DNA from: Pseudomonadota bacterium | GTDB lineage: Bacteria > Pseudomonadota > Gammaproteobacteria > Burkholderiales > Rhodocyclaceae | Reading direction: 5' to 3' | DNA: 38,997 nt | Assembly: GCA_021782315.1 (NCBI GenBank) | Contig: JAJXVG010000008.1 | Coordinates: 1 to 38,997 of the forward strand | Shown here: positions 10,034-12,413 of the stretch, one piece after another | Layout of the letters: the number at the start of each line of letters is the position of its first letter | How positions within the stretch are numbered: position 1 is the first letter of the stretch | The notes under the pieces: model-generated | What the model was told of the DNA's origin: nothing | Seen by the model: the letters and a program-made list of their open reading frames with translations, nothing else | The model's database searches: none | Program-made: the position numbers and the translations under genes

Positions 10034-11854
10034 ATGGCCATTTTCTTCCCGGACATCCACTCCAAAAACCTCAAACTGACCCCAGGCGAGCGCCGTTTTG
10101 CAACCTGCCTCCTGCGCACCCTTGAAGACGATTATTGCTGCTGGATAAATGTTCCTGTCGGCAGCCGGCAGTTACGGCCCGATTTCATCGTGCTGCATCC
10201 GGGACGCGGCATTCTGACCCTTGAAGTCAAGGACTGGAAACTTCCGACCATACGCGGCATGGATCGTTTTCGGGCAGAAATCACGACCGATCGTGGCCCG
10301 AAAACCGAGGTGAATCCACTCGAACAGGCACGTGGGTATGCGATAGCGATCAAGGAAATTCTGGAGCGTGACCCGCTTCTGGTTCAGCAGGAACCCGGTC
10401 GCTACCATGGCCATCTCTTGCTTCCCTGGGGGTTCGGCGTCGTCCTGACCAACATTACCCGGCGACAGTTTCTGGAAAATTGCCTGGAGCAGGCGATACC
10501 AGGCGACAGGGTCATTTGCCAGGACGAGATCGCCGAGGCGGTGGACGCCGAATCGCTTCAGCAAAGGCTCTGGGACATGTTCCAGTACAGTTTTGGCGGA
10601 TTGCTCTCACTGGCCCGTATCGACCGCGTGCGCTGGCATCTCTTTCCCGAAATCCGCATCAATCAAACGGGCCTGTTCGGACCGGAAGACGAAGGCCCGG
10701 ACAAGAAAGGGAAAATCAATCAGTTTCTGCCCGAGCTGATTAAGGTGATGGATACCCATCAGGAAAAGATTGCCCGTAATCTCGGTGAAGGACACCGCAT
10801 CATTCACGGCGTTGCCGGCTCGGGCAAAACCCTTCTGCTGGCCTTTCGCTGCCTGCATCTCGACAAACTTAACATGGCCAAGCCGATCCTGGTGCTTTGC
10901 TACAACAAAACCCTGGCGGCAAGACTTACGGAAATGCTCAAGGAACGCGGCACCGGCGACAACGTTCAGGTGCGTCACTTCCATGGCTGGAGCAAGGCCA
11001 TGTGCGATCTGTATCAGCTTGAGCTGGAAAAATCGGATCGGCCGATCTGGGAGAGACAGGTCGAAGCCGTCATCGCCGGGGCGGAGTCCGGCAGGGTGCC
11101 GCGAGCACAGTATTCGGCCATCCTGATCGACGAGGGCCATGATTTCGAACCCGAATGGTTCAAGCTGCTGGTGCAGATGATAGACCCCGAAACCAATTCC
11201 CTTTTGCTGCTCTACGACGATGCACAAGGCATCTATGGCGAGAAAAAGAAACGCTCGGTGTCCTGGGCCAGTCTGGGGATAAAAGCGACCGGCCGCAGCA
11301 CCATCCTCAAGGTCAATTACCGGAATACCGTTGAGGCGCTCGATTTCTCCTATCAATTCCTGTCTGCCTACATCGACGAGGCATCCGGCAGCGAAGAAGC
11401 GCCACTGATTCATCCCGATGCCGGCGGCAGAAATGGATGCAAGCCCCTGGTGCGCCGCTTTCCGAGCAAGGCCGCCGAAATGGAGGGCCTGGTCGAATGG
11501 TTGAAACAGCGCGCCGCATCCGGTATTGCTTACAACGAGATGGCAGTGCTCTGTCGCTTCAATAATCAGATTGAGCAGCTTGGCAAGTTGCTGGGCGCCA
11601 AAGGCATTCCTGCAACAGACGAACTACAGGGTAAAGCAGGGGTTCGCCTGATGACCATGCATGCCAGCAAGGGCTTGGAATTCAACAGCGTCGCCATACC
11701 GGAGCTTGGCTGCATGCCCTGCCCAAAGGCCGGCCCTGACGAAGAAGCGAAGCTGCTATACGTGGCTTTGACCCGTTCGACCGATTCGCTGTTCGTTTCC
11801 TACCATGGCGAGAGCGACTTTACCCGGCAATGCGAACGTCTTGCCGGAAATTGA
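10034..11854 (+). CDS. NERD nuclease-domain / UvrD-type helicase protein
   Basis: 606 residues. The N-terminal NERD domain (about 15-180) carries a PD-(D/E)xK-like set: Asp50 (RPDFIVL), Glu64 and Lys66 (LEVKDW). A superfamily 1 helicase module follows: Walker A GVAGSGKT (259-266), Walker B LIDEGHD (Asp366/Glu367), a late MTMHASKGLEF and motif VI LLYVALTRSTD. The domain set predicts ATP-driven DNA translocation with nuclease activity. NERD-helicase proteins are scattered and often accessory; some nuclease-helicases act against phage, but a defence role here is inference. No partner gene is adjacent. It sits just before ssrA, a frequent island insertion site, and codon choice looks slightly less GC-rich than in its neighbours. 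Confidence 0.85.
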   Translation: MAIFFPDIHSKNLKLTPGERRFATCLLRTLEDDYCCWINVPVGSRQLRPDFIVLHPGRGILTLEVKDWKLPTIRGMDRFRAEITTDRGPKTEVNPLEQARGYAIAIKEILERDPLLVQQEPGRYHGHLLLPWGFGVVLTNITRRQFLENCLEQAIPGDRVICQDEIAEAVDAESLQQRLWDMFQYSFGGLLSLARIDRVRWHLFPEIRINQTGLFGPEDEGPDKKGKINQFLPELIKVMDTHQEKIARNLGEGHRIIHGVAGSGKTLLLAFRCLHLDKLNMAKPILVLCYNKTLAARLTEMLKERGTGDNVQVRHFHGWSKAMCDLYQLELEKSDRPIWERQVEAVIAGAESGRVPRAQYSAILIDEGHDFEPEWFKLLVQMIDPETNSLLLLYDDAQGIYGEKKKRSVSWASLGIKATGRSTILKVNYRNTVEALDFSYQFLSAYIDEASGSEEAPLIHPDAGGRNGCKPLVRRFPSKAAEMEGLVEWLKQRAASGIAYNEMAVLCRFNNQIEQLGKLLGAKGIPATDELQGKAGVRLMTMHASKGLEFNSVAIPELGCMPCPKAGPDEEAKLLYVALTRSTDSLFVSYHGESDFTRQCERLAGN

Positions 11855-11911
11855 GCTGGGAAATAACGATGGATGAGCATCGCCGCCGCTCGACACATGA
11901 CCGCCCGGCCC

Positions 11912-11940
11912 TTGTAAAACACCCACCCCGCCCCCATAAT
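11912..11940 (+). promoter_or_regulatory. Promoter of the permuted ssrA gene
   Basis: TTGTAA, a 17-base spacer, then CATAAT. The predicted start is near 11947, about 30 bases before the T-arm of the tmRNA acceptor piece. Spacing and boxes fit a sigma70 promoter for a stable RNA. Confidence 0.6.
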
Positions 11941-12009
11941 TCAAAACATGGTTGTAATTCCGGCAATCTGGAGGCGTTCTGGACAGGGGTTCGATTCCCC
12001 TCACCTCCA

Positions 12010-12040
12010 CCCAAGCGCATCGGCAACGGTGCGTTTGGCT
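12010..12040 (+). other. Intervening segment of permuted pre-tmRNA
   Basis: The spacer joining the acceptor piece to the coding piece. CCAAGCGCA (12011-12019) pairs with TGCGTTTGG (12030-12038), nine pairs with one G-U, around a 10-base loop. This would stack on the acceptor stem in the precursor and be removed by processing. After the discriminator A the DNA reads CCCA, not CCA, so the 3' CCA is probably completed by the nucleotidyltransferase. Confidence 0.75.
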
Positions 12041-12125
12041 GGGGGTGTACTGGTTTCGACAGGGCGGGCAAAGGTGAGCAGGCAACTCGTCAGGCGATCG
12101 ACGTTAATGAAGCAAATCCATAAAT

Positions 12126-12158
12126 GCCAATGATGAGCATTTCGCTATTGCCGCCTAA
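12126..12158 (+). CDS. tmRNA tag reading frame (ANDEHFAIAA)
   Basis: Resume codon GCC at 12126, then codons for NDEHFAIAA and TAA at 12156. With the alanine carried by tmRNA itself, the added tag would be A-ANDEHFAIAA. The C-terminal AIAA, close to the common ALAA, is the degron read by ClpXP-type proteases. Its distance from the 5' end of the coding piece (85 bases) is normal. Confidence 0.88.
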   Translation, partial: ANDEHFAIAA

Positions 12159-12202
12159 AAACGGCTAGCCGGGGCTGCTAGAGCCTTGTTACCAAAGATA
12201 GC

Positions 12203-12226
12203 CGGCGGGGACTTCGGTCCCCGTCG
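12203..12226 (+). other. UUCG-capped hairpin near the 3' end of the tmRNA coding piece
   Basis: A 10 bp stem (12203-12212 with 12217-12226, one G-U) closed by a C(UUCG)G tetraloop. It lies downstream of the tag stop codon, where tmRNAs carry pseudoknots and hairpins, and no T-run follows. It is probably a structural element of the mature RNA or a processing guard. Confidence 0.55.
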
Positions 12227-12413
12227 TCACGTTTGGCAGGCGCTGGCCTTGGCTCTGTCCGTATCGTTGTCATTTGATATGGAGACAGGCATCAGGTAAT
12301 CTCCACGTCATGAATAAACCTGCAGGCTATTCAATAGTTTCCGTATTTTTAGTAATAGCACTGACATTCCGGCGCCAGAGTCACTATTGGGCATCAAGAG
12401 GGAATTTCCGCTG

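Follow-up and report, generated by a model that had tools for sequence, protein, structure and literature searches.

Which kind of tmRNA gene lies at this locus, and how has its form come to differ between members of a single genus? tmRNA, a near-universal ribosome-rescue RNA, frees stalled ribosomes, and the parts played in its pathway by RNase P, nucleotidyltransferase, AlaRS and SmpB are established. A two-piece tmRNA of betaproteobacteria was reportedly described by Sharkady and Williams in 2004. The stretch of DNA analysed here (the window) comprises 38,997 nt of a contig assigned to the Rhodocyclaceae, and a first-pass annotation made from its letters had proposed that it contains a circularly permuted tmRNA gene of this kind. 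In the following, genomes, locus records and genera carry our handles G, L and g, respectively.

The permuted gene of the window

The swapped order that had been proposed is real. On the plus strand, the T-arm (stem and loop, 11985-12001) and the 3′ acceptor strand CACCTCC (12002-12008) precede the 5′ acceptor strand GGGGGTG (12041-12047), and the two strands pair at 7/7 positions, as claimed, in the order G-C, G-C, G-U, G-C, G-C, U-A and G-C. The G-U pair is G3-U70, which together with A73 constitutes alanine identity. The 3′ strand is followed by A73 (12009), CC (12010-12011) and a C at the place of A76; that is, the gene encodes ACC-C, and the final A of CCA is absent from the DNA. The distance between the strands, given earlier as about 30 bases, is 28 nt if the three CCA positions are excluded and 31 nt if counting starts after A73. 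ARAGORN placed the frame of the predicted tag ANDEHFAIAA, from GCC to the stop TAA, at 12126-12158, and this frame has a resume codon and an Ala-Ala end.

The acceptor piece would extend from 11947 to 12012, as judged from the sequence, the Rfam alignment and the fold, and contains the 5′ half of the long helix, GGUUG (11950-11954), in addition to the T-arm. The spacer, or intervening sequence, would occupy 12013-12040, with bounds taken from tRNA ends, and forms a hairpin stacked on the acceptor stem. The coding piece, which begins with the 5′ acceptor strand and continues with the rest of the tmRNA and its tag frame, would extend from 12041 to 12229, according to ARAGORN and the end of the RF01850 match.

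Both programs agree on the class. ARAGORN in permuted mode called a permuted tmRNA at 11920-12249, and the Rfam model RF01850 (beta_tmRNA; curated cut-off 84 bits) matched 11899-12229 with 323.0 bits (E 1.1e-104) over model positions 1-331 (331/331). The gene shares its order, secondary structure and tag region with this covariance model, which represents no pseudoknots, over the 331 positions. It also shares the permuted tRNA-like domain of RF04321 (tmRNA_permuted; 173.3 bits, 11950-12158), although the beta model fits better; PMC11915505 presents RF04321 as a general model for the alpha, beta and cyanobacterial types. Neither ARAGORN nor Rfam detected another tmRNA, or any tRNA, in the window. 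The assignment to the betaproteobacterial two-piece type is supported, and the gene is a fresh member of an already known kind that differs in nothing essential.

A sigma-70-like site (TTGTAA-17 nt-CATAAT, 11912-11940, plus strand), identified by consensus match only, is the single promoter-like site in 11840-12330, where shuffled sequences contain 0.2 on average. Because this site ends at 11940, the proposed start at 11947 is sensible. The fold of segment 11950-12060 has an energy of -51.7 kcal/mol, compared with a mean of -37.3 for shuffled sequences (z -4.05), and displays the T-arm, the acceptor stem and the spacer hairpin stacked on it; for 12006-12060, which includes the spacer, z is -2.90. 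A 3′ hairpin at about 12203-12226, which corresponds to a helix of the RF01850 model, is also stable (fold of 12200-12230, z -4.11), but the transcript end is unsure because no run of T lies behind it.

Distribution of the two forms

Across the class, RF01850 exceeded its cut-off in 2 of 143 genomes, the window's own and G025, and across the order in 7 of 200. Within the family, the permuted form (RF04321 over cut-off) occurs in 75 of 199 genomes and the standard form (RF00023 over cut-off) in 111; at least one form was found in 183, and neither in 16. Only three genomes exceed both cut-offs: G440, in which a single gene is matched by both models; G460, in which a 3.5-kb contig with the tag DNEYNYEY is likely foreign; and G352, which shows both in a fragmented assembly.

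Ten genera (g1, g146, g255, g266, g268, g275, g278, g291, g298 and g305) contain both forms in different genomes, and an eleventh, g267, is mixed only through G460. The window's genus, g1, has the permuted form in four genomes and the standard form in one. Because single-contig genomes in g1 and g291 show either form (permuted in G447 and G472; standard in G482 and G382), mis-binning is unlikely to account for the mixture in these two genera.

Among 116 pattern matches on genome contigs, the best BLAST matches to the window gene come from Azonexus: 96.5% over 284 nt in Azonexus sp. GS18 and 96.1% over 283 nt in two records of Azonexus hydrophilus. Outside the family and order but in the same class, G025 has a permuted tmRNA at L007:1501-1805 with a spacer of approximately 5-9 nt, scoring 121 bits against the beta model and 141 bits against RF04321. 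Permuted-gene pattern matches also occur in records titled as other phyla, namely, Clostridia (L271, L325), Frankia (L341), Bacillota (L349), Acidobacteria (L364) and Desulfobulbus (L293); the last is 86% identical to the window gene and may be mis-binned.

Carriers and chromosomal location

The permuted gene is also carried by mobile elements. A Cupriavidus plasmid (NZ_CP017753.1) has a copy with 81.4% identity across 99% of the query (231.7 bits), and a conjugative Pandoraea plasmid has a distant copy (131.6 bits). A scan of viral contigs yielded 30 loci, seven of which were scored with Rfam; three of these seven carry the beta type at 269-298 bits (L388:1523-1862, L374:467-794 and L393:198-523). 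In all three, the tmRNA has on one flank a convergent phage-type DNA methylase gene (phrog_498 in PHROGs) and on the other a gene resembling the one in L388 (phrog_8020); a terminase small subunit (phrog_57) is nearby in L374. The viral status of these contigs rests on IMG/VR and on the genes named by PHROGs. A further viral contig has a divergent permuted tmRNA (L382:6774-7122, 137 bits) and eight tRNA matches. GenBank phages yielded nothing beyond 34-38 nt matches, which came from 13 cyanophage records.

According to PMC9004378, phage Melnitz carries a permuted two-piece ssrA with alphaproteobacterial kin and a glutamine riboswitch, and 53 phage tmRNAs, by the authors' count, are called two-piece by ARAGORN. 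In the three contigs of this study, by contrast, the tmRNA is of the beta type and is flanked by a phage methylase gene and a phrog_8020 gene.

The phrog_8020 gene occurs in 14 of the 199 family genomes. ARAGORN called no tmRNA at the methylase/phrog_8020 place in the 19 family stretches (L424-L442); the two genes abut or almost abut in L425, L426, L427, L428, L430 and L431, and in the remainder they are separated by 0.2 to 1.3 kb or the stretch does not include the methylase. The tmRNA is therefore optional at this phage place.

Traces of the phage arrangement persist beside bacterial copies. Among 177 permuted-tmRNA locus records, with several genes represented repeatedly, two non-viral ones have the final 37-39 methylase codons at the 3′ end of the tmRNA: a Sulfurisoma MAG (L301, 1920-2036; 71.8% identity, E 1.8e-15) and a Propionivibrio MAG (L344, 6202-6318; 56.4%, E 2.7e-7). 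In both, the methylase ends at the same flank base as in L388, and the tmRNAs of L344 and L388 are reciprocal best matches (96.5%). In G162, two pieces of a phrog_8020 gene lie approximately 4 kb from the permuted tmRNA. Judging from these flanks, the simplest reading is that the bacterial copies with traces, which stand on MAG contigs, would have come by phage. Moreover, because the nearest relatives of the three phage tmRNAs belong to different bacterial lineages, exchange seems to have been repeated. No methylase or phrog_8020 trace was found beside the window's own copy. In G425 and G500, the standard tmRNA gene has a phrog_8020 gene approximately 18-19 kb away (on contigs 77 and 71, respectively), possibly reflecting prophages integrated at or near ssrA.

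We extracted 55 permuted genes (51 in the family, together with those of G025, G194, G295 and G317 outside it) and 52 standard genes. Thirty-eight of the standard genes lie directly downstream of ubiG or gph. Of the 51 permuted genes, four occupy the ubiG-gph site in the same orientation (G359, G505, G518 and G390) and five in inverted orientation (G414, G451, G370, G492 and G361); two genomes outside the 51-gene set, G418 and G464, also have the gene inverted there. The other 42 have neither ubiG nor gph within 2.5 kb, a few of them with short flanks. When the ubiG stretches of 24 genomes were inspected, the permuted gene was present in G464, G418 and G451; within the stretches of the other 21, including the window's genome, there was neither a tmRNA nor a remnant of a one-piece ssrA. 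G482, one of these 21, has its standard gene elsewhere.

Changes of form on the host tree

We picked rpoB by motif and constructed a quick IQ-TREE phylogeny of 82 genomes (45 permuted and 37 standard, with G352 and G460 scored as permuted; 3186 columns). This tree needs 19 changes of form, 16 of them forced by well-supported (starred) branches, and these are not rates because the sample is enriched for mixed genera. Shuffled form labels require about 27 changes on average, and the form is therefore also clustered on the host tree. Distances between permuted genes follow rpoB distances weakly (0.239, n=45; 500 shuffles reached at most 0.318, with an sd of 0.074), and those between standard genes at 0.439 (n=37; largest shuffle 0.327). 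Six of the 42 inner branches of the permuted-gene tree are starred, and it is thus poorly resolved. Nearly identical permuted genes nevertheless occur in distant hosts: G476 and G451 differ by 0.042 against 0.262 in rpoB, and G383 and G440 by 0.048 against 0.249 (189 columns).

An ancestor that possessed both forms, of which descendant lineages each lost one, would produce mixed genera with no need for horizontal spread. The clustering on the rpoB tree, the weak link between permuted-gene and rpoB distances and the presence of both forms in G352 count in favour of such a history. However, double carriers number only 3 of 199, and of these G440 is the model overlap and G460 the foreign-looking contig noted above. 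Furthermore, near-identical genes in hosts that are far apart by rpoB, the location of most permuted genes away from the site that is home to most standard genes, and the carriage of the gene by phages and a plasmid all argue against this history, and we regard it as unlikely, if the most serious competitor.

Separate lineages of the permuted and standard genes

The mixed genera might also be explained if permutation arose in place many times from the local one-piece gene, and the occurrence of both forms at the ubiG-gph site in g268 and g255 speaks for such events. The sequences do not agree with this explanation. Identity of the 5′ piece averages 0.78 within the permuted genes, 0.754 within the standard genes and 0.526 between them, with a maximum of 0.612 between the forms; 107 of 107 genes have a gene of their own form as nearest neighbour. 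For the acceptor arm, readable in all but 20 genes, the same is true of 86 of 87. Permuted and standard genes of one genus (identity 0.528, 39 pairs) are as much alike as those of different genera (0.526). Because the two forms are separate lineages, and a permuted gene is no closer to the standard genes of its own genus than to those of others, repeated permutation in place is highly improbable.

On balance, we lean towards the reading that the two-piece tmRNA is a mobile, phage-optional gene, which may stay after the phage has decayed, leaving methylase codons behind, and which would repeatedly displace one-piece ssrA within genera. For the family as a whole we infer, less surely than the class of the window gene, that the permuted lineage spreads horizontally, partly by phages, and displaces the one-piece gene. 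A search of titles and abstracts found no paper on form switching within genera or on beta-type tmRNA in phages; key older papers lay outside our reach, and we claim no priority.

Host genome and working of the window gene

The window is contig 32 of an assembly of 3.39 Mb in 291 contigs, 89.3% complete, whose ubiG-gph pair sits on contig 87. The tmRNA has as neighbours a lumazine-binding (ribE-like) gene, a NERD-UvrD helicase gene, a GNAT-like frame and a TonB receptor gene. The helicase gene (10034-11854) separates the ribE-like gene from the tmRNA; the distance between these two is 52 nt in G252 and 496 nt in G512. RF01850 has one match in the assembly, and SmpB has one (196.9 bits). A complete one-piece ssrA elsewhere in the genome, which the first-pass annotation had named as contrary evidence, did not appear: in this 89.3% of the genome RF00023 has no match over its cut-off, and the best of its 11 weak matches (30.1 bits) falls inside the permuted gene itself.

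In all likelihood, the window holds a working, circularly permuted ssrA of the betaproteobacterial type, made as one transcript, cut into two RNAs, charged, and active in SmpB-assisted rescue; for the window gene, the cutting, the two RNAs, the charging and the function are inferred from its sequence. A single transcript would begin near 11947, end at the 3′ hairpin, and be cut at both ends of the spacer by tRNA-processing enzymes: RNase P would cleave before G12041, and 3′-end enzymes after A12009 or after the CC that follows. Removal of the spacer would leave an acceptor piece of approximately 65 nt and a coding piece of approximately 190 nt, which the long helix and the 7 bp of the acceptor stem would hold together. 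The CCA would then be completed by nucleotidyltransferase, and AlaRS would charge the molecule through G3-U70 and A73. With SmpB, it could rescue stalled ribosomes and add ANDEHFAIAA.

The acceptor stem has seven pairs in 52 of 55 permuted genes, the other three being unreadable by the pattern used. The bases after the 3′ strand are ACCC in 19, ACCA in 16, ACCT in 14 and others in six, and therefore the final A is often unencoded in this lineage. The encoded ACCC of the window gene speaks against its working as proposed, but ACCC is the most frequent ending in this set. The strand is readable in 37 of 52 standard genes, 36 of which have ACCA, and the pattern finds no real stem in the other 15. 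That the window gene is a decaying or silent copy, the real tmRNA gene lying in the missing tenth of this fragmented assembly, is scarcely credible beside its full-length match, its complete acceptor pairing, its open tag frame, and the three congeners (G252, G447, a single contig, and G512) that have the permuted form and lack any standard match at E 1e-12.

Conclusions

Considered singly, the window gene adds a further correct annotation to a known class. The wider pattern is of greater weight: within single genera, a near-universal housekeeping RNA alternates between two builds, one of which has phage and plasmid carriers. If our reading is true, a near-universal rescue RNA has been swapped repeatedly by mobile elements. 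Close strains could then be used to test whether the two-piece build confers an advantage and how a rescue RNA may be replaced without loss of function.
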